DNA of 64,000 nt. It comes from Kordia sp. Lineage in GTDB: Bacteria > Bacteroidota > Bacteroidia > Flavobacteriales > Flavobacteriaceae. This document shows, piece by piece, positions 4,482 to 14,874 of this stretch. The notes below the pieces were generated by a model. It searched no databases. It saw nothing but the letters and a program-made list of their open reading frames with translations, and was not told where the DNA came from. A program made the position numbers and the translations under genes. Numbering within the stretch: the first letter of the stretch is position 1; every line of letters begins with the position of its first letter. The stretch is taken from assembly GCF_022447245.1 (NCBI RefSeq), contig NZ_JAKVBC010000001.1:124001-188000 (forward strand), written 5' to 3'.

Positions 4482-5993
<1,512 letters not shown>

Positions 5994-6075
5994 TTAAGTG
6001 TTTAATGTTTAGGTTATTAAATATCGAAAAACGAATTTCATATTTTATGCTAAAACATGACCGTTTTTCGCCGTG

Positions 6076-6083
6076 CAAAGATA
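6076..6083 (-). promoter_or_regulatory. candidate -7 box for atpDC
   Basis: TATCTTTG on the minus strand matches the Bacteroidota -7 consensus TAnnTTTG and lies 86 bases before the atpD start. I found no convincing -33 TTTG at the best spacing. The rest of 6084-6299 is AT-rich and shows only a small palindrome, AGGATTTGAAATCCT, at 6263-6277. Confidence 0.45.
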
Positions 6084-6299
6084 TATTTTTATTAATTAAA
6101 ATTAGTAGTGTTTTGCAATGATTTTTAAGATTTACAAAAAAAACTTTTTGAGGTCTTTGTTTTCGTGTCCCTGGAATCGTAGTAATCACAAAAAAACTAT
6201 ATTTATTTCACCTTTTTGTGGTGATAATTTTCTAAATTTATTTAATATTACACCCAAATTTTAGGATTTGAAATCCTGATGCCGATAAAATAACAATAA

Positions 6300-6326
6300 A
6301 GTTCCCCTTTTCAATACTTGTTACCC
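6300..6326 (-). promoter_or_regulatory. bipartite motif before the sigma gene, shared with peptide leaders
   Basis: On the minus strand this reads GGGTAACAA, 12 bases, GGAACT. The same two halves with the same 12-base spacing occur at 11416-11442 before peptide B, and with 13 bases at 10907-10934 before peptide A. Here it is inverted relative to the downstream gene and 40 bases before the sigma start. It could be an operator for a dimeric regulator or an ECF-type promoter element pointing away from the sigma gene. Confidence 0.4.
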
Positions 6327-6365
6327 TATCAAAAAGTAATCTTATTTAATAGCGTTATTGTTTGT

Positions 6366-6932
6366 ATGACATCAACACAAAATGATTTTTTAAGTACTCT
6401 TTCTAAGGGAAAGGAAGAAGATATCCTTGTGTTTTACCAAAAGGTATTTCCGAAAGTGTCTCGTTTTATTGTAAGTAATAATGGCCGCGTGAGTGATGCT
6501 GAAGATATTTTTCAAAAAGCATTGCTACAAGTGATTGTTCGATACAGAAAGGAGCCTTTTGCCATTAAAACTTCTTTTGAGAACTATTTTTTTACTGTTT
6601 GTCGAAATTTGTGGCGACGCGAGTTAAATTCGTCTAAATTGAAAACACATCATTTGGATACGCTTGAAAATATAAGTGATGTTGAAGATTCGGCTTTTGC
6701 CATTGTAGAACAAGAACGTTATGAGTTGTTTTCTGAAAAACTAGCATTGTTGTCTGAGAATTGCGGAAACTTACTTTCACTGTTTTTTAAAAGAACACCT
6801 TACGTGACAATTATGCAAAAAATGGGCTATAATTCTGAAAATGTGGTAAGACAACGTATTTTTAAGTGCAAAAAGCGATTGATTGAGCTTATAAAGAAAG
6901 ACCATAGGTATGATGATTTAAAAGATATATGA
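6366..6932 (+). CDS. ECF-type RNA polymerase sigma factor
   Basis: About 188 residues from the chosen start MTSTQNDFLS; an upstream in-frame ATG at 6318 would add 16 hydrophobic residues that do not fit the family. Region 2 is visible as VFPKVSRFIVSNNGRVSDAED (listed in parts: FPKVSRFIVSN, DAEDIFQKALLQVI) and TSFENYFFTVCRNLWRRELN, and region 4 as LLSLFFKRTPYVTIMQKMGY with NVVRQRIFKCKKRLIELI. Such factors direct polymerase to a small regulon and are usually restrained by a partner encoded next door; the gene at 6929 overlaps by four bases and fills that place. The likely regulon includes this operon and perhaps the two peptide genes, but that is inference from a shared upstream motif. Confidence 0.85.
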   Translation: MTSTQNDFLSTLSKGKEEDILVFYQKVFPKVSRFIVSNNGRVSDAEDIFQKALLQVIVRYRKEPFAIKTSFENYFFTVCRNLWRRELNSSKLKTHHLDTLENISDVEDSAFAIVEQERYELFSEKLALLSENCGNLLSLFFKRTPYVTIMQKMGYNSENVVRQRIFKCKKRLIELIKKDHRYDDLKDI

Positions 6933-7723
6933 TGGAAGACAATATATTAATTGAGCAATATTTAAAAGGTACACTGACCGATGCGCAAAAAACTGCTTTT
7001 TTGAAACGGTTGGAATCCAATGCTGTTTTTAAAGCGCAAGTACAACTTGAAGAGCAAATGTTGGCTGCGCTTGGTGAAACGTATTGGAGTTTTGCCAATA
7101 ATACATCTCATGCAAGAGTTGAAGCTTACAAACAGCTATTGGAAAGCGAAGAAACACAATTAGTAAAGTCCACCATTGCAAATGCTCATAAAGCTTATAA
7201 AATTTCACAAGAGAATAAGTCAAAAGCTACGAATCCTATTTTTAAGCTACGAATCGTGGCAAGTATCGCTGCCATATTCATGATTTTGATTTCTATTTTT
7301 TGGTTTTTTAGTACTGATACTAACACCATTGATTATAAAGCGATTGCTACTAAAGCATGGAAGAAAGATGTCGGTCTAGATTTTACGGTACGAAATGGCA
7401 CTGTAGATAGCACAAAAGTGAATTTAGCGAAAGCTTTACAGTTATATAAAAATAAAGAGTATTCACAAGCCATAGCTTCACTCCAAAAATATTCAAATAC
7501 TTCTTCACATTACAAAGACATTTTAGTTGTACGTGCGCTGTCATATCACAAACTTCAAAAAACATCAGTTGCATTACAAACATTGGACAGCTTGAGTGCC
7601 TATACACCTAGAATTTCTCAATGGTACAAAGGATTGATTTATTTAGAAAAAAACAAACTCGAAAAAGCCGCTTTGTTTATACACATCCCCACCAAAGAAA
7701 ACCAAGAAATTAAACTCAAATAA
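6929..7723 (+). CDS. membrane TPR protein in anti-sigma position
   Basis: A 264-residue protein overlapping the sigma stop by four bases (ATGATGG; an ATG three bases later is an alternative). The N-terminal ~90 residues (EDNILIEQYLKGTLTDAQ, then FLKRLESNAVFKAQV) resemble the cytoplasmic helical part of anti-sigma-like proteins of Bacteroidota. One membrane segment follows (about 108-127, IVASIAAIFMILISIFWFF). The C-terminal half is outside the cytoplasm and carries TPR-like helices (LYKNKEYSQAIASLQKY, ALSYHKLQKTSVALQTL). The layout suggests a receptor that senses something through its TPR part and releases the sigma factor. Sequence alone does not prove binding. Confidence 0.7.
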   Translation: MMEDNILIEQYLKGTLTDAQKTAFLKRLESNAVFKAQVQLEEQMLAALGETYWSFANNTSHARVEAYKQLLESEETQLVKSTIANAHKAYKISQENKSKATNPIFKLRIVASIAAIFMILISIFWFFSTDTNTIDYKAIATKAWKKDVGLDFTVRNGTVDSTKVNLAKALQLYKNKEYSQAIASLQKYSNTSSHYKDILVVRALSYHKLQKTSVALQTLDSLSAYTPRISQWYKGLIYLEKNKLEKAALFIHIPTKENQEIKLK

Positions 7724-7727
7724 ACTC

Positions 7728-10700
7728 ATGAAGAACAGTTTTTATCTTTTTTGTGCATTTCTGCTACTAGGAATGCCCTTAAAACTACATGCTCAAAAAA
7801 ACTCAACAACACAAACACAATTAAATCAAGGAAAAGAGCTTTTATTTTATGGAAAATACGATCAAGCCTCTAAGATTTTTCAAAAAATACTCATTACGGC
7901 AACTGCATCCAATAATGCTATAGAAATTGCCGCTGCTTATAATGGGCTCGCAAAAACATATACACATCAAGCCAAATTACGACAAGCACTTGACTATGCA
8001 AAAAAAGCATTGGAATATAGCGGCAAAAACAAAGAAACTGGCAAACTGCAAGAAGCGACTGCTTTGGAGAATCTTTCTGTCTTATTCGGCATATTTGGAG
8101 ACTCTAAAATTGCACTTAAAAATAGTAACGAAGCTCTAGAAATTCGCAAAAAATACTTTAAAGATGATAAACTTTCCTTAGCACGTTCGCATTTTTACGT
8201 TGGACTTGCCTTGCATCGCGATAGAAAATTGAAGCTCGCTTCTAAAAAACTAGAGACCGCTTTATCCATAGACCTTGAAACATCAGTGGAGCGTACTATT
8301 TTATATGCTGATATTTATGAAACCCAAGGACATTTGTGTTACGACTTAGGTCAAATTAATAAGACACTTGCCCTTTTTGAAAAAACATTAGCATTAGCAC
8401 AGAAAGTCTATCCAAAAAACAATCCATATTACGGGAAAGTATACAATAACCTCGGACTTATATATGCCACAAATAAGCGATTTAATGAGAGTTTAGAATA
8501 CTACCACAAAGCGCTCAGTATCAGCATTCAAAATCATGGCCTTGACAATCATGATGAGCAAGTTCGTATTAATTTCAATATTGCAGATATCTACATGAAT
8601 TTGGGTATCAAGGACAAAGCGTTTGCATATACTTACAAAACGATTGAATTGGGCACAAAGTTTTATGGTGCAGACCATCCGAAAATGCATTATCCGTATA
8701 GCATGTTAGGTACCATTTATGGTGATGAAAGAGGAATTCCAGATCTTGAAAAAGCGCTTTCTATTTGCTTAAATGCTAAGGAAGTCAATTATGTGATTGC
8801 TGGTTTTTTATATGAATATATATACAATATTTACTTTAAAGTTGAGAATTATAAGGATGCTTTGATAAATGCTGAAAAGTCATTAGAAATTCGTCGTAGG
8901 ATTCACGGTTTGCAAAATGTGAACACCATTCGCACCTACAATGACATTGCAAAAACAAAAGCTCTTTTGAATGATTTTGAGAATGCATTCATTGCTAATG
9001 AAAAAGCACTCACATACAATAAGCTAATCAACACAACAAATGACAATCGCTTTTCGAATACCAATTATGTGAATAGCGAATTGCTATTGGAATCGCTAAA
9101 AACCAAAGGCGACATTTTATTTCTCCAATTTTTAAATACAAACAATGTTGCGTATTTAAGACAAAGTATTATTTTTTTTAATGAAGCGGTTTCGTTTATT
9201 GAATTAGCCAGAGAGTCGCGACAGAATCGCCAAGATAAAATTCAATTTTCTGAAATTGTAAAAACTGTATTTGCTAAAAAAATTGAGGCAGCGCTTTTAC
9301 TTGAAGAAATTGAACCCACGAATAAAACTCTAGAGAATTCATTTTATGCTTCCGAAAAAAGCAAAGCGTATGTATTGCGCGAATTGTTGAGTAATGCCGA
9401 AGCAAAACGAAAGACCAATCTTCATAAGGAGATTTTAACGTTGGAAAAATCCATCAATAGAAAACTTGACATGTTGCGATCTCAAATCCTAACAGAAACG
9501 TCACAAAAAGAAGTAGACACTGTAAAATTATATGCATTACAAGGTGCATTTTTTGACGCTTCCAAGCAAAAAGATTCACTTGAAAATAGCATCGAAGCTG
9601 CAATGCCAAATTATTATAAGTTGAAATACGGAAATACGGTTATTACTATTTCCAAATTACAAGGAAAATTAAACGCCAGCACTACACTGATAGAGTTTTT
9701 TAGCACAAAGAATGCTCTATATGCTTTTATCATCTCAAAAGAAACATTCCATGTAGAAAAAATTGATGTTGATGCAGATTTGGCTAAGCTTATTTCACTT
9801 ATGAATACAAGCATTATCTCAAAAGATCAAGCTACTTATGAAGTAACTGCCGAAAATTTGTATTCAGAAGTAATTGCGCCGCTTAAAAAATATTTTATAG
9901 GCGACGAACTAATTATTATTCCTGATGAATCTCTTTGGCATTTACAGTTTGATTTACTTTTAACAGGGAAAAATGAAAACAAAGAAAAGCCTGCGTATTT
10001 GTTGCACGATTACGCCATTAGTTATGCAAATTCGGCAAGTTTACTTTTTAATGAAAGTGAACCTATGCAAACTTCTAATTTCGCAAACGAATGTGTGGCG
10101 TTTTCATTTACTAGTACAGATACCATTTTAGCACAGAGCAATACCATTCGCTTGGCAGATTTAAGAAATTCACAAATTGATTTACCAGGAACACGTAAAG
10201 AGATTAAGGAAATTTCAACGATTTTAGATGGAACTTATTTTTATGGCAATATCGCTAATGAAATGAACTTTAAGAAGTACGCAAATACTTCTAGAGTGTT
10301 ACATTTAGCCTTACATGGCGATATTGACAATAATAATCCAGAGAATTTGAAAATTTATTTTTCAAAAGGAAGTCCCAAAGATGATGACCAACTTTTTAGT
10401 CACGAATTGTATTCTATGCATATTCCAGCAGATTTGGTGGTTTTGAGTGCTTGCAATACAGGAAATGGTCAAGTAAGCCGAGCTGAGGGAATTCAAAGTT
10501 TAGGAAATGCATTTCAATACGCCGGAACCAAAAGTTTATTATTAAGCAGCTGGGAAATTTCAGATAAAACTACTCCAGAAATTATGCGTCAGTTCTATAA
10601 AAATCTAAAAGAAGGCATGCCAAAACACAAAGCGCTGCAAAGTGCTAAAATCGATTTTTTAGAAACATCAGACACCTTTAGTGCAATGCCTTTTTACTGG

Positions 10701-10838
10701 GGAAGCTTTTATATTTTAGGAAATACTGCCCCAATTCCTTTTGCTACAGCTAATTATACAATCTGGAGCATCGGGTTGACCATATTTGTGGTTATACTTT
10801 TAATTTTCATCATGGTCAAAAGAAGAAGCAGAACTTAA
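7728..10838 (+). CDS. TPR-CHAT domain caspase-like protein
   Basis: A 1036-residue protein with a signal peptide (about 1-23, ending LKLHAQ), many TPR units (about 30-450, e.g. YNNLGLIYATNKRFNESLEY), a helical linker, then a CHAT domain (about 700-990) and a C-terminal membrane helix (about 1007-1028) followed by basic residues. The caspase-family dyad is present: His863 in LHLALHGD and Cys909 in VLSACNTGNG, with SLLLSSWEISD and PFYWGSFYILG after it. CHAT proteins are peptidases related to caspases and separases, usually activated by partner domains. The topology puts the CHAT domain on the periplasmic side with the tail in the membrane. It starts four bases after the TPR membrane gene, so the three form one operon. 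The substrate is unknown. Confidence 0.9.
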   Translation: MKNSFYLFCAFLLLGMPLKLHAQKNSTTQTQLNQGKELLFYGKYDQASKIFQKILITATASNNAIEIAAAYNGLAKTYTHQAKLRQALDYAKKALEYSGKNKETGKLQEATALENLSVLFGIFGDSKIALKNSNEALEIRKKYFKDDKLSLARSHFYVGLALHRDRKLKLASKKLETALSIDLETSVERTILYADIYETQGHLCYDLGQINKTLALFEKTLALAQKVYPKNNPYYGKVYNNLGLIYATNKRFNESLEYYHKALSISIQNHGLDNHDEQVRINFNIADIYMNLGIKDKAFAYTYKTIELGTKFYGADHPKMHYPYSMLGTIYGDERGIPDLEKALSICLNAKEVNYVIAGFLYEYIYNIYFKVENYKDALINAEKSLEIRRRIHGLQNVNTIRTYNDIAKTKALLNDFENAFIANEKALTYNKLINTTNDNRFSNTNYVNSELLLESLKTKGDILFLQFLNTNNVAYLRQSIIFFNEAVSFIELARESRQNRQDKIQFSEIVKTVFAKKIEAALLLEEIEPTNKTLENSFYASEKSKAYVLRELLSNAEAKRKTNLHKEILTLEKSINRKLDMLRSQILTETSQKEVDTVKLYALQGAFFDASKQKDSLENSIEAAMPNYYKLKYGNTVITISKLQGKLNASTTLIEFFSTKNALYAFIISKETFHVEKIDVDADLAKLISLMNTSIISKDQATYEVTAENLYSEVIAPLKKYFIGDELIIIPDESLWHLQFDLLLTGKNENKEKPAYLLHDYAISYANSASLLFNESEPMQTSNFANECVAFSFTSTDTILAQSNTIRLADLRNSQIDLPGTRKEIKEISTILDGTYFYGNIANEMNFKKYANTSRVLHLALHGDIDNNNPENLKIYFSKGSPKDDDQLFSHELYSMHIPADLVVLSACNTGNGQVSRAEGIQSLGNAFQYAGTKSLLLSSWEISDKTTPEIMRQFYKNLKEGMPKHKALQSAKIDFLETSDTFSAMPFYWGSFYILGNTAPIPFATANYTIWSIGLTIFVVILLIFIMVKRRSRT

Positions 10839-10906
10839 TTTTAAAATTTATAACAACTTCAATATCAACATAATACGATTTTTATCATAAAAAAATAGAA
10901 ATCTTA

Positions 10907-10934
10907 GGGTAATAAATTCCATTTTTTTGGAACT
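10907..10934 (+). promoter_or_regulatory. bipartite motif upstream of peptide A
   Basis: GGGTAATAA, 13 bases, GGAACT, with an internal inverted repeat TTCCA / TGGAA. It is nearly the same as the element before peptide B. GGAAC followed 15 bases later by GTC would also fit a generic ECF promoter, though the second half is not kept before peptide B. It lies 195 bases before the peptide A start. Confidence 0.45.
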
Positions 10935-11026
10935 ATGAAATGGAAGCAGTCACTGTTTTCCTTTCAATTTTTAACCAAAACTCAAAAGATAACATTAAAA
11001 CCGATTATTATCTTTTTACAATATTC

Positions 11027-11074
11027 TTTCGCGAAGAATAGACATAAAAAGTGAGTGTCTCAAAATGTTCACTC
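11027..11074 (+). promoter_or_regulatory. conserved leader hairpin block before peptide A
   Basis: TTTCGCGAAGAATAGACA, then GTGAGTGTCT, then AAATGTTCACT. These strings recur before peptide B at the same distance (27 bases) from the start codon. AGACA can pair with TGTCT, or alternatively AGTGA with TTCACT, so two exclusive hairpins are possible. A role in the 5' untranslated RNA is inference. Confidence 0.45.
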
Positions 11075-11101
11075 GTTACATTACCTTTTAAATTTTATAG
11101 T

Positions 11102-11284
11102 ATGAAAAAAAGAAAGCTAAATTCATTAAAATTAAACAAGAAATCAATTTCAGATTTAACCAAAGAGAAGAATATTGGAGGAATCAACACTGCTAATTGT
11201 GGACCTTCAAATAATGCTTGGTGTACTTATGATGACAGTTGTTTCAGCAAAGGACCTGGCTGTAGCAGATGGCAAATTTGCTAA
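11102..11284 (+). CDS. lanthipeptide-like precursor peptide A (Gly-Gly leader, 5-Cys core)
   Basis: A 60-residue peptide. Residues 1-27 form a leader, MKKRKLNSLKLNKKSIS..., which matches the LNLKKxSI-type leader of class I lanthipeptide and related natural-product precursors of Bacteroidota, ending in IGG (26-27). The core of 33 residues has Cys at 33, 41, 47, 54 and 60 and six Ser/Thr, compatible with thioether rings or with disulfides. The ATG at 11102 is chosen over a longer upstream frame because the leader starts there and matches peptide B residue for residue. No LanB, LanC, protease-transporter or other maturation gene is in the window, so the peptide is an orphan here. A strong terminator follows. 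Confidence 0.75.
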   Translation: MKKRKLNSLKLNKKSISDLTKEKNIGGINTANCGPSNNAWCTYDDSCFSKGPGCSRWQIC

Positions 11285-11305
11285 TGCATTAGCCAAACTA
11301 TACTT

Positions 11306-11332
11306 AAGCGAACTTCGGTTCGCTTTTTTTTT
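11306..11332 (+). terminator. strong Rho-independent terminator after peptide A
   Basis: AAGCGAAC, a TTCG tetraloop, GTTCGCTT and a run of T. A textbook hairpin 22 bases after the stop, which shows that peptide A is transcribed as its own unit or is the end of the upstream operon. Confidence 0.9.
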
Positions 11333-11415
11333 ATGATTTCTTCACTGTTAAACCACTCACAATCTGCACAATACACTTTTTAGGTGTGTTTTTTTAAAGA
11401 AAGTACAAAAATACT

Positions 11416-11442
11416 GGGTAACAAATTCCATTTTTTGGAACT
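11416..11442 (+). promoter_or_regulatory. bipartite motif upstream of peptide B
   Basis: GGGTAACAA, 12 bases, GGAACT, with TTCCA / TGGAA inside. It shares both halves and spacing with the inverted element at 6300-6326. It lies beyond the peptide A terminator, so peptide B very likely has its own promoter. Between this element and 11664 the DNA holds an open frame (11450-11713) that I judge non-coding. Confidence 0.45.
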
Positions 11443-11663
11443 ATAAGTTATGAGAGATAACTGTTTTAAAACTAAAAACACATTTGTTTATACCAAATAC
11501 TTACTTTCAAATAAGTATTCACAAGCTATTTATTCTTATCAAAAAGCAGGCAGTTTTTATCGTTTCTACTTTGGAGCACATACTATAATTCTCTCAAAAT
11601 TTTCAACCAAAAAGATAAAAAGAATGTTCGCGCAAAGCGAATTACTACTATTCAAAAATATTT

Positions 11664-11710
11664 TTTCGCGAAGAATAGACACAACTGTGAGTGTCTTTAA
11701 ATGTTCACTT
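11664..11710 (+). promoter_or_regulatory. conserved leader hairpin block before peptide B
   Basis: Repeat of the block at 11027-11074: TTCGCGAAGAATAGACA, GTGAGTGTCT and AAATGTTCACT. Here the first stem is AGACAC / GTGTCT; in the A copy the sixth pair is a T-G wobble, so the stem is kept while the bases differ. Confidence 0.45.
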
Positions 11711-11736
11711 TAAGAATTAACTATACAATTTAAATT

Positions 11737-11925
11737 ATGAAAAAAAGAGATTTAAAATCATTAAGCCTTAACAAGAAGTCAATTTCAAATTTTGATAACA
11801 GCGAATTAGTTGGAGGAACAGGTATCACAAATATTTATGAGTGCCCATCAGCATTAGTAAAGCCTCATTGCTTTATTAAAGAATCATTCATTACAATATG
11901 TCAGTGCCCATCTAACGTATGCTAA
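11737..11925 (+). CDS. lanthipeptide-like precursor peptide B (Gly-Gly leader, 5-Cys core)
   Basis: A 62-residue paralogue of peptide A. The leader MKKRDLKSLSLNKKSIS... ends in VGG at exactly the same position (26-27). The 35-residue core has Cys at 36, 45, 55, 57 and 62 and six Ser/Thr, but shares almost no residues with core A: the leader is conserved and the core is free to vary, the pattern expected of a modified or exported peptide. The Cys spacing also differs. No maturation enzyme is encoded nearby. The pair may act together, or be two variants served by one remote machinery. Confidence 0.75.
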   Translation: MKKRDLKSLSLNKKSISNFDNSELVGGTGITNIYECPSALVKPHCFIKESFITICQCPSNVC

Positions 11926-11978
11926 TTACCTATTTTAAACAACATACAAACAAGCTTTCAAGCTGTATTGTTCAAAAA

Positions 11979-12006
11979 AAAAGGCTGCCAATTGGCAGCC
12001 TTTTCC
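11979..12006. terminator. bidirectional terminator between peptide B and the TonB receptor
   Basis: AAGGCTGCCAATTGGCAGCC hairpin with A-runs before and T-runs after, so it can end transcripts from both sides: peptide B on the plus strand and the receptor gene on the minus strand. Confidence 0.9.
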
Positions 12007-12027
12007 ATACAATATATTTTAATTTTC

Positions 12028-14874
12028 TTATTGATTGATAACCCAAGAAATAAAGTATTGTGATCCAATAGTACCAACTCCTGGCGCACTTACATATTCG
12101 TATCCTAAAATGTTAGCTGCTCCAAGTTTGAATGTTGATTTCTTGTAACGGTAATTTACTTGCAAATCAACTAATGAACGTGCTGATACTGTTCCATCTG
12201 CAAAACTTGATTCCCAAAGGAAAGAATCATTCCATCTCCAATTAATGTTAAATCCAAAATTATCAAAAAGGTTTCTGTTTCCAAAAGAAGCTTTTACCTT
12301 GTGTTCTGGCGTGTTAAAGTTTGTTTCAAAATCTGGATCGCTTGCTCTATCAAAGTCAAGTTTTGCATACGTATAGTTGATTCCAAAGTCATAATCTCCA
12401 AATACTTTAGTATTCGCTCCAATTGCAACACCATAAGAACTGATATCAGCATTTGAATTAGAATACAATTGGAAAGGTGTAAAGTCACCATTGGCTGCTG
12501 CAATTAATGCGTTTGGTGTTGGCGCTCCACCTACTGGAGTTAAGTCTGTGATATCTGAAAAGTCTACATTACCATAGTTTGGAACAATTACGGTTCTGTT
12601 TGCAATGAAATCTTTGTATGAGTTATAGTATGCACTTACATCTACAGAGATATTATCATACACAATTCCACGATATCCAACTTCAAATGCAGATACTTGC
12701 TCTGGCTTTACAAAATCAATATTAGCTCTTTGTAATAATGCTGGGTTAGGTGCTCCTGCTGCTGAACTTGCTCCAAATTCCTGAAATGATGATAGTGTAA
12801 ATGAGTTGTTATATGCATCACTTCCAGAAAGTGTTACTGTTCTCGGTAAGCCTAGTGCTTCTAATCCTGCTGGGAAGTTATTTGTAATTGGTCTACTCGT
12901 GTAACGATTCAAGTTATCAGGAGCCGAACCTACTAAGATTGCATTTCCAACATCTAAACCAATATATTGATCCTGCGTACTTGGGTTACGGAAACCTGTT
13001 TGGAATGAAGCTCTAAAGTTATGTTTTTTAGCTTCATCTGGAGAATATACCAATGATAATCTTGGGGAAACATTTCCATCAAAGTTTTGTGCTTTATCAT
13101 AACGGATAGAACCTGTAAACTTCATCTTATCTTCCAAAAACTTTTTCTGTACTTGCACATACGCACCGTATTCATCATATCGAATTGGTCCATCAGTATC
13201 TGTAAAGATCGTTCCTTGAGAATCCAATACATATTCACGATATGACCCACCAACTTGAATGTCAGCAACATCAACTAAATGTGAAAAATTATAATTTACA
13301 TCAACATGATATAATTTTGTATTGTCTATAAATCTTGCTCCAGTTAATAAATCTCCATCAGCAGTTACCGCATCTAAAGCATTTCTAAATCCTGTTGAGC
13401 CCGGCACTAAACGACCTGTATCTGCCAAGCCCCTTGCAAAAGCGTGTGCTACTGTTGGATCACCTGGTGTAACTCCAGGAATCGCTCCTGTGATAGCTCC
13501 TAAATATCCTGTTGCATATTCTGTAAACCATTGTTGATCTGATTTCCATCTTCTGTTTACATTGATTGCTGCAAAACGTGTATCGTATGAATCGTTTGCC
13601 TTTTCAGCAGTAACATATCCACGAACAAAGAAGTTATCATTACGAACTTCTAATTTGTGTTGTTGCATGAAGAAGTTTTTGATAGAATATCTATTTGCTC
13701 CTTGGTAGATTGTGTTACCACGACCAATTTTTGAATTCCAAATCACTGTAAAGTCATTTGCCCAAGGCTTGTAATGCATTGCTAAATCTGCTTTTACGCT
13801 TTCTGCATCATAATCCATTAAATCGCGTTCCTCGTAACCAGTTCTTGAAACTGCTGCAGAACCAAAAGTTCCCGCTGGAACCCCTGCTAAAGTATCAAAA
13901 TTTAAAGTAGTTGAAACTTCATCTCCGTAAATATTCAATCCGTCATAGTTTGGATCAGATACTCTATCTCCAGCAATTGCATCACCAGAAGCTGCATCGA
14001 AGTTTGTATAATCAGTAGCAAACCATTCTGTTCCGTTTAAGAAAGAGAAAGAAGCTTTAATTGCAACTTTATCACTAAATGCATGTGCTGCTCTAAATCC
14101 AAAGTCAACAAAATTATTATCTCCTGCATTGTCTGATGAAGTCATTCCTGTTTTTGCATAAAAGCTAATTCCTTGCTCTTTGAAAGGATCTTTACTACGC
14201 ATAAACATGATACCGTTAAACGCATTTGCTCCATATAGTGCTGAGGAAGCTCCAGGTAATAATTCTACCGTCGCTACATCTAATTCAGACATTCCTAATA
14301 AGTTTCCTAAGGCAAAGTTTAAGGCTGGTGAAGAATTATCCATTCCATCTACCAACTGCATAAATCGTGTATTGGCAAAGGTGGCAAAACCTCTTGTGTT
14401 AACAGATTTAAAAGTTAAACTATTCGTATTAATATCAACACCTTTTAAGTTTTCTAAGGCATCATAATAATTTGGAGAAGATGCATTCTTAATAGCTCTA
14501 GCATCCATACGCTCAACCGTTACTGGAGATTCTCGGATTCTTTCTGGTGTTCTCGAGGCAGAAAGAACGATTTCATCTAACTCTGTTCCTTCTTTTAGAA
14601 CAATAGTAACGTCTTCATTGTCTTTGGTAATTTCTACAGTAGCAGAATCAAATCCGATACTACTAGCTGTAATTTTAAAAGGTGGGTCTTGATTTACCGA
14701 TAGTTTGAATTTTCCATCAAAATCAGTACTAGTTCCAGTAGAAGATCCTACTACTACGATGTTTACACCTGGGATTGGCATGTTATTGCCATCAACAACT
14801 TTTCCACTAACATTGGTTTGTGCAAATAGACCTGCACAAACCAACATAGCTAAAATTGATAGATATGCTCTCAT
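12028..14874 (-). CDS. TonB-dependent outer membrane receptor with CarboxypepD_reg-like N-terminus
   Basis: A 948-residue outer membrane protein. Signal peptide 1-19 (ending GLFAQ), then a carboxypeptidase-regulatory-like beta domain (about 20-100: VSGKVVDGNNMPIPGVNIVV, STDFDGKFKLSV), a TonB box region LDEIVLSASRTPERIRES, the plug (about 110-235, with LPGASSALYGANAFNGIM) and a beta-barrel to the end. Such receptors import a ligand using TonB energy. No SusD partner follows, so a siderophore, vitamin or peptide ligand is as likely as a glycan; the substrate cannot be told from the sequence. It lies 80 bases below the glmS end in the same direction. Confidence 0.92.
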   Translation of the reverse strand: MRAYLSILAMLVCAGLFAQTNVSGKVVDGNNMPIPGVNIVVVGSSTGTSTDFDGKFKLSVNQDPPFKITASSIGFDSATVEITKDNEDVTIVLKEGTELDEIVLSASRTPERIRESPVTVERMDARAIKNASSPNYYDALENLKGVDINTNSLTFKSVNTRGFATFANTRFMQLVDGMDNSSPALNFALGNLLGMSELDVATVELLPGASSALYGANAFNGIMFMRSKDPFKEQGISFYAKTGMTSSDNAGDNNFVDFGFRAAHAFSDKVAIKASFSFLNGTEWFATDYTNFDAASGDAIAGDRVSDPNYDGLNIYGDEVSTTLNFDTLAGVPAGTFGSAAVSRTGYEERDLMDYDAESVKADLAMHYKPWANDFTVIWNSKIGRGNTIYQGANRYSIKNFFMQQHKLEVRNDNFFVRGYVTAEKANDSYDTRFAAINVNRRWKSDQQWFTEYATGYLGAITGAIPGVTPGDPTVAHAFARGLADTGRLVPGSTGFRNALDAVTADGDLLTGARFIDNTKLYHVDVNYNFSHLVDVADIQVGGSYREYVLDSQGTIFTDTDGPIRYDEYGAYVQVQKKFLEDKMKFTGSIRYDKAQNFDGNVSPRLSLVYSPDEAKKHNFRASFQTGFRNPSTQDQYIGLDVGNAILVGSAPDNLNRYTSRPITNNFPAGLEALGLPRTVTLSGSDAYNNSFTLSSFQEFGASSAAGAPNPALLQRANIDFVKPEQVSAFEVGYRGIVYDNISVDVSAYYNSYKDFIANRTVIVPNYGNVDFSDITDLTPVGGAPTPNALIAAANGDFTPFQLYSNSNADISSYGVAIGANTKVFGDYDFGINYTYAKLDFDRASDPDFETNFNTPEHKVKASFGNRNLFDNFGFNINWRWNDSFLWESSFADGTVSARSLVDLQVNYRYKKSTFKLGAANILGYEYVSAPGVGTIGSQYFISWVINQ

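Follow-up and report, generated by a model that had tools for sequence, protein, structure and literature searches.

We analyzed a 64,000-nucleotide stretch of a Kordia sp. genome (Flavobacteriaceae; contig NZ_JAKVBC010000001.1, positions 124,001 to 188,000; hereafter the window). It carries an operon for an extracytoplasmic function (ECF) sigma factor, a TPR membrane protein and a TPR-CHAT protein, followed by two genes for small Gly-Gly precursor peptides. Our analyses suggest that this locus is a cassette maintained as a whole unit, in which a periplasm-facing TPR-CHAT protein would act through a membrane anti-sigma factor on an ECF sigma factor that drives the peptide genes. That peptide production is linked to the sigma/CHAT module is very probable. 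The full mechanism we propose has, in our estimate, a probability of about 0.5.

The observations behind this reading are the anatomy of the locus, its conservation as a whole unit, a motif (B) in front of the peptide genes, covariation in an element (A) that precedes their start codons, and a neighborhood of CHAT genes and element A that recurs in other genera. In general form, and at the same even odds, envelope CHAT proteins of Flavobacteriaceae would switch on, through an anti-sigma and ECF sigma factor, genes for Cys-rich Gly-Gly peptides with an undescribed pseudoknot leader RNA. The module would move as a unit. It could also act in trans, together with lanthipeptide enzymes or C39-VKOR exporters whose own genes stand beside CHAT/sigma modules.

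Conservation as a unit within the genus

The genus set comprised 11 genomes, including that of the window, and we added a neighbor from another genus (G011); CHAT proteins occur in all 12. Orthologues of the window CHAT protein (57-62% identity, E up to 1e-60) were found in four of the ten other genus genomes. These counts come from whole-genome searches, as a scan of contigs for CHAT relatives gave three loci only. All four orthologous loci occupy the same site as in the window, between atpD and a TonB receptor gene, and continue with one peptide gene (G001) or two. Operon and peptides are together at this site in 5/11 genus genomes, and neither is there in 6/11. The gap between atpD and the receptor gene is about 0.25 kb in the six non-carriers and about 1.9 kb in G011, with no operon or peptide between. 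The original prediction, made from the sequence of the window alone, would have been contradicted by relatives whose CHAT operon never accompanies the peptides; the two are together in all five carriers of the genus.

A tree of atpD and the TonB receptor scattered the five carriers rather than grouping them in one clade, which indicates that the unit was gained or lost whole more than once. Carrier G008 pairs with non-carrier G006 at 100% and carrier G002 with non-carrier G010 at 93%; several deeper nodes of this tree are weak (35-75%). The peptide cores vary among the species. The peptide of G001 has 87 amino acids and another core, and the first peptide has 43 amino acids in G007 and G002.

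Gene products of the operon

The original prediction had identified the ECF sigma factor, the TPR membrane protein, the CHAT protein with His863 and Cys909 and the two Gly-Gly peptides with five Cys each. Both the open reading frames (ORFs) and the Pfam/NCBIfam matches agree with this (coordinates in Table 1). The sigma factor matches TIGR02937 (sigma70-ECF; 48.7 bits, cut-off 42.9) and PF04542 (Sigma70_r2; 25.6 bits, cut-off 24). Its probable start, the ATG at 6366, was placed by the orthologues, which align from near that point. The second protein, encoded directly after it, has a single hydrophobic, probably membrane-spanning segment at residues 102-131 and a weak TPR match below the Pfam/NCBIfam cut-off. 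The third protein carries TPR and a CHAT domain (PF12770) at 4.5e-54, with 184.3 bits against a cut-off of 24.

His863 and Cys909 are invariant in an alignment of four sequences. Across the aligned CHAT domains, H and C stand at these positions in 64 of 69 rows. The domain was badly cut in the remaining five rows; all five of these proteins have the His motif, two have the Cys motif by pattern and two more have it by eye (L087, L144). The protease domain probably faces the periplasm, because the protein has a signal-like N-terminus, as judged by eye, and a C-terminal transmembrane (TM) segment. An AlphaFold model built from the four-sequence alignment had a mean predicted local distance difference test (pLDDT) score of 65.8, with no 10-residue block past residue 640 above 76. 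Foldseek comparison of this model with the PDB gave, among the matches listed, mostly TPR and other helical-repeat proteins, with the transmembrane anti-sigma factor DdvA ranked 8th and 13th and no CHAT or caspase entry; we did not use this result as support. A sequence search of solved structures returned TPR matches.

These features bear on the possibility that the CHAT protein is a defense or self-limiting effector, that the peptides are toxins released with it and that the sigma factor serves as a general stress switch. A CHAT protease is reported to act in type III-E CRISPR immunity (PMC10028731), and one leader from another genus resembles bacteriocin leaders (NF047798, 18.7 bits where the cut-off is 23.5). 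The signal-like N-terminus and C-terminal anchor, however, put the window CHAT protein at the envelope, and no toxin or defense evidence turned up in searches that did not extend to the PADLOC library. We regard such a role as unlikely.

A shared promoter-like motif

The five carrier species have nine peptide genes, eight of which are preceded by motif B, GGGTAA[C/T]-N15/16-GAACTAT. The ninth, the second peptide gene of G008, lacks its own motif B and element A and may share a transcript with the first. Allowing at most one mismatch, we found 16 matches across CHAT and syntenic loci totalling 0.97 Mb, the window included. In the same sequence, 12 shuffled motifs gave 0-5 matches (mean 0.8) and six other spacings gave 0-2. 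The 16 matches comprise nine at the window-type locus, five upstream of genes at the subtilase-CHAT loci of the genus, one inside a sigma gene and one elsewhere. At the level of whole genomes, 18 exact matches were present in the 12 genomes, nine of them at the window-type locus; the reversed control pattern gave three. The GGGTAAC half also occurs between the sigma and CHAT genes in five of the seven loci read in other genera (see below), where 0.12 would be expected. Sigma control would fit the occurrence of motif B at the peptide units, in the sigma region and at other CHAT loci. The motif is probably the target of this sigma factor, a link drawn from sequence.

A related idea is that the peptides themselves are the signal: an exported mature peptide would bind the TPR arm of the CHAT protein and start the sigma response in a quorum-like loop. 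The co-inheritance of peptide and CHAT agrees with it, as would positive feedback through motif B. The cores, however, differ between species while the CHAT protein keeps 57-62% identity, and we consider a signaling role unlikely.

A predicted pseudoknot leader RNA

Element A, a block of about 57 nucleotides (nt), is found before both window peptide genes and before one in each other carrier, and so at six of the nine. It is more conserved than its flanking sequence. We searched for further copies in 397 Flavobacteriaceae genomes with a 16-base core pattern, allowing one mismatch; many of the hits are chance. Three of 43 candidates (two chance matches and a partial copy before a C39-VKOR gene in L240) were removed, leaving an alignment of 40 copies. 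A small Gly-Gly-type precursor (GG or GA) follows 38 of the 40. No ORF was found after one of the other two, and the second precedes the gene of a 175-amino-acid lipoprotein.

The aligned copies support a structure of a hairpin (P0) and two helices (P1 and P2) that cross as a pseudoknot. P2 ends the element, and in the measured copies the start codon follows it by 25-31 nt. In this structure 92.2% of cells are paired, compared with 83.5% in shuffles and at most 52.6% when the structure is slid along the alignment. P1 is 98.3% and P2 93.3% paired, and four pairs in each changed on both sides. None of 500 shuffles reached either the fraction of cells paired or the covariation score. P0 is the least secure part, with 85% paired and an inner pair that fails in 19/40 copies. 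Outside this inner pair, G-U cells outnumber A-C cells by 36 to 7, which favors an RNA on the sense strand. With its crossing helices, compensatory changes and position upstream of a coding sequence, element A is in kind a pseudoknot cis-regulatory RNA, with a predicted regulatory effect. It could instead be a DNA operator with interleaved inverted repeats, as P0 is a near-perfect palindrome. The crossing helices with two-sided changes, the sense-strand excess of G-U over A-C and the nearly constant spacing to the start codon all argue against this, and we find a DNA operator decidedly unlikely.

A covariance model of element A detected 145 copies in 47/397 genomes and 39/237 genera (E up to 0.001, the E-values being rough). 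The model is biased to the core pattern, because the 40 copies were found through it. In the window genome it detected only the window pair. Rfam 15 at gathering score gave no match on element A in 12 loci, the sole hit being Flavo-1 elsewhere in L240. At E up to 1 there was no match on the A copies in window positions 6000-12100, and at E up to 5 in L218 (1100-1700) the search gave only a weak mir-34 match on the opposite strand, below gathering score. As no Rfam 15 model matched it, element A appears to be undescribed. The partial copy before the C39-VKOR gene (L240, position 7544) raises the possibility that the leader RNA also acts on processing or export genes.

Recurrence of CHAT genes and element A in other genera

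CHAT genes, 89 in all, were found in 32 of the 47 genomes that carry element A. We compared their positions with those of 97 A clusters. Within 1, 2.5, 5 and 8 kb of a CHAT domain lie 5, 12, 14 and 15 clusters, whereas 0.15, 0.30, 0.56 and 0.87 are expected from density. All 15 are on the same strand as the CHAT gene and 14 are downstream of it. Two are in the genus, one of them being the starting locus, and 13 are in other genera. We read seven of these 13, from seven genera.

All seven loci contain sigma and TPR-membrane genes that run divergently from the CHAT side; in L291 the CHAT gene was assigned from the CHAT search and the domain alignment. Four of them (G334, G300, G386 and G370) have the order CHAT, C39-VKOR-thioredoxin, element A, C39-type ABC exporter, A-preceded peptide, membrane fusion protein (MFP), or nearly so, with labels assigned by similarity to L238, whose proteins were checked with Pfam. 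The layout closest to the window is that of G127 (L285), where CHAT is followed by an LxLxK peptide with element A and by LanC; the adjacent exporter has no C39 match. In G344 the A peptide lies beyond the sigma gene, on its far side. The window sigma factor shares 44-55% identity with the sigma factors of these seven loci, which are its nearest non-orthologues among the loci compared. Its identity to the sampled paralogues of its own genus, including the LanC-linked one, is at most 42%.

Small lipoprotein-like genes are present between sigma and CHAT in L285 (13048-13485), L280 (15501-15902) and L238 (16120-16689). Some resemble, by eye, the N-terminal part of the genus subtilases that precede CHAT, and may therefore be propeptide-like regulators.

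The same neighborhoods bear on whether the CHAT protein is a maturation protease that removes the leader at Gly-Gly, as the original prediction had proposed, or trims the exported core. Element A within 1 kb downstream of the CHAT domain in five genomes speaks for this, and the G127 exporter without a C39 match leaves room for another protease. C39-type genes are nevertheless found in 4/7 of the loci read (Pfam-checked in L238), the window genome has six C39 matches, 82/97 A clusters have no CHAT within 8 kb, and the predicted periplasmic location would place the CHAT protein after C39 processing. Cleavage at Gly-Gly is left unsupported by these data, and we judge a maturation role improbable. 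By analogy with known systems, a CHAT protein that acts as a switch on the sigma factor is more likely than one that cuts leaders. Of the sigma-controlled release system first suggested, the sigma control is retained (co-presence, motif B and recurrence) and the CHAT protein as Gly-Gly protease is given up.

The precursor pool and a remote LanB/LanC locus

Against the model lant_leader_L1a (NF038153; cut-off 22 bits), the two window peptides score 13.4 and 18.0 bits, both too low to pass. They are 40% identical overall, with similar leaders, and peptide 2 shares 63-76% identity with its counterparts in three other species. NF038153 matched 117 places in the window genome (G000) at E <= 10, of which 20 were above cut-off. 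We read 97 of the 117, the other 20 not being fetched, and 71 of the 97 were clean Gly-Gly precursors with 0-11 Cys. Five Cys occur in ten of these 71, and five Cys as a hallmark was dropped; the count noted for the window peptides is correct, and the special status given to it is not.

The window peptides are members of a large dispersed precursor family, so proximity to CHAT alone would mean little. In a genome this rich in precursors, one beside a CHAT operon would need no explanation. Such a chance neighborhood, offered as an alternative in the original prediction, is highly improbable, because operon and peptides occur or are missing together across 11 genomes, the locus carries motif B and element A, and the arrangement recurs in other genera; we reject it.

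Searches for LanC and C39 gave no match inside the window, and inspection of its ORF list by eye likewise showed no modification enzyme or exporter, as first reported. The window genome as a whole has six CHAT matches (one weak) and three LanC-like matches (one short, with an internal stop) in addition to its C39 matches. LanB and LanC beside the peptides, the mark of a class I lanthipeptide locus, were not seen: none of the three LanC matches is in the window, and LanB was not searched genome-wide. We also observed that LxLxK Gly-Gly precursors in this genome far outnumber what three LanC matches would suggest.

A LanC/LanB/exporter cluster is located about 38-51 kb past the window end, within C1:218-239 kb of the window genome (L088, L092). 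This region contains a subtilase-CHAT operon opposite a sigma factor, a TPR-membrane (anti-sigma-like) protein, LanC and LanB (N and C parts; LanC/LanB at 227.6-232.0 kb), as well as an AraC-type regulator with TPR, two clear and one weak LxLxK-like precursors, an MFP and a C39 exporter. By comparison of coordinates, LanC lies about 5.5-9.8 kb from the subtilase-CHAT gene in 10/11 genus genomes; in G005 they fall on separate contigs, both close to a contig end. This cluster likely supplies modification and export and may serve the window peptides. A remote LanBC locus serving the peptides had been proposed as an alternative to a functional link with CHAT. Such a locus exists, and it adjoins a sigma/CHAT locus, so the likely supplier would itself be tied to a CHAT/sigma module.

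Further CHAT loci in the genus lie near LxLxK peptides and were not counted as the same arrangement, as none has element A or motif B there. One type is represented by L175 (G001), where another CHAT gene and four LxLxK precursors (4566-5667) are arranged tail to tail. In the C78 type, CHAT and peptides are separated by an epimerase gene (and by others too in L171), and in the L144 type the peptides lie past an aminopeptidase gene. In L086 (C61 of the window genome), an operon of sigma, TPR-membrane and CHAT genes is followed by genes for a 1144-amino-acid protein and an 817-amino-acid protein with a C39-like end.

Proposed mechanism

We propose that an envelope or contact event acts on the CHAT protein through its TPR arm. 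The CHAT protein would then cleave or destabilize the inhibitor of the sigma factor, namely the anti-sigma protein or, in other loci, the small lipoprotein, much as Csx29 acts on Csx30 and CASP-sigma. That CHAT gates the sigma factor is inferred from this analogy. The released sigma factor would transcribe the peptide units from GGGTAAC-N15/16-GAACTAT, and the leader pseudoknot would set translation or mRNA stability. A C39 exporter whose gene lies elsewhere would export the Cys-rich precursor and cleave it at Gly-Gly; LanB and LanC from the C1:218-239 kb cluster may act on it beforehand.

Several results weigh against this mechanism. We scanned up to 620 nt upstream of 79 precursors in the window genome, and a B-like hit precedes three besides the window pair (C12:75883, C67:32703 and C19:63683), where about one is expected. 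With so few B-like hits and element A only at the window pair, the remaining peptides of the genome must be controlled otherwise. B-like hits also lie inside the sigma coding sequence (L161) and at a few unrelated places. In other genera, the gap between sigma and CHAT mostly shows the GGGTAAC half of motif B only, and the second half is mostly not seen. For helix P2 alone, the two-sided pair count was reached by 27/500 shuffles (other measures, 0/500). The 82/97 A clusters without a nearby CHAT gene imply that CHAT is not needed for A-peptide systems generally, and in G070 the element A after CHAT precedes a 175-amino-acid lipoprotein gene, not a Gly-Gly peptide. The window CHAT protein is only 25-29% identical to the three A-linked CHATs that made the list and belongs to another CHAT lineage; alongside the sigma identities, this indicates a shared sigma line and a CHAT of different history. 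The anti-sigma role of the second protein is presumed from position and topology, and it has no match to a curated anti-sigma family in NCBIfam (NF052375, 15.7 bits against a cut-off of 100). Finally, physical linkage alone favors the joint loss of neighbors.

Among the B-like hits, that at 10952 in L161 was discounted because it lies within the sigma coding sequence. At the C12:75883 precursor (L046, minus strand), a one-mismatch motif B begins 56 nt before the leader match. This precursor is a possible trans target of the sigma factor; about one such hit is expected by chance.

Features of the locus

The terminator-like hairpin separates the two peptides, which are therefore probably two transcription units. 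The minus-strand copy of motif B beside the sigma gene may be a remnant of the divergent sigma/CHAT layout of other genera.

Table 1 Positions of the genes and elements of the cassette within the window.
Feature	Position	Strand	Remarks
Motif B copy, GGGTAAC-N15-GAACTTT	6298..6326	-	Directly 5' of sigma, oriented away from it
ECF sigma factor	6318..6932	+	ORF; probable start ATG 6366
Membrane protein, presumed anti-sigma	6929..7723	+	One TM segment, weak TPR
TPR-CHAT protein	7728..10838	+	His863/Cys909; signal-like N-terminus; C-terminal TM segment 1006-1035
Motif B	10907..10936	+	5' of peptide 1
Element A	11020..11076	+	Leader of peptide 1; predicted hairpin and pseudoknot RNA
Precursor peptide 1	11102..11284	+	60 amino acids; LxLxK-type leader, Gly-Gly, five Cys
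Intrinsic-terminator-like hairpin	11306..11325	+	Between the peptide units
Motif B	11416..11444	+	5' of peptide 2
Element A	11657..11712	+	Predicted RNA leader of peptide 2
Precursor peptide 2	11737..11925	+	62 amino acids; Gly-Gly, five Cys

Comparison with known systems

To our knowledge, the inputs and targets of CHAT proteins outside CRISPR are largely unknown. Here a protease, a sigma factor, a promoter motif, target peptides and a leader RNA come together in natural loci, which makes the circuit open to testing. Element A also offers a search handle: one short model has matches in 39/237 sampled genera, and in the copies read (38/40) it marks Gly-Gly-type precursor genes, some of them without an enzyme nearby. 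Kordia is already known as a source of many biosynthetic clusters (PMC10734526, PMC7477175). In our partial view of the open literature, we found no description of a CHAT, sigma, lanthipeptide, bacteriocin or pseudoknot system of this kind in these bacteria.

The closest functional parallel is the Craspase of type III-E CRISPR, in which the TPR-CHAT protein Csx29 is reported to cleave Csx30 and relieve the inhibition of CASP-sigma (PMC10028731). By this analogy, both loci would bring together a TPR-CHAT protease, a sigma factor and its inhibitor. Csx29, however, is described there as activated by a CRISPR RNA (crRNA) complex, whereas the window CHAT protein combines a signal-like N-terminus with a C-terminal anchor and is encoded together with a membrane TPR protein and the peptides. 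Systems of the EACC2/TRADD-N type are likewise predicted to couple a caspase-like domain with a TPR protein and an ECF sigma factor. They differ in their other domains, and the descriptions available to us, on which this comparison is based, mention no peptide precursors or leader RNA.

The peptides resemble class I lanthipeptide precursors of Bacteroidota (NF038153) in their LxLxK leader and Gly-Gly, and two clear and one weak precursor of this kind are in the LanC/LanB/C39 cluster of the window genome. Unlike these, the window peptides score below the cut-off, have no adjoining enzyme and carry element A and motif B. Bacteriocin-like precursors with the Chryseo leader (NF047798 leader_Chryseo) are also small, Cys-containing Gly-Gly precursors, found beside C39 exporters, and element A precedes such peptides too. 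Their leader sequence is different, and the loci read encode exporter, C39-VKOR and MFP locally.

Regulated proteolysis of membrane anti-sigma factors is known from RseA/DegS. The proposed circuit is similar to it in combining a membrane anti-sigma factor, an ECF sigma factor and an envelope protease, and differs from it in that the protease would be a caspase-like CHAT protein.

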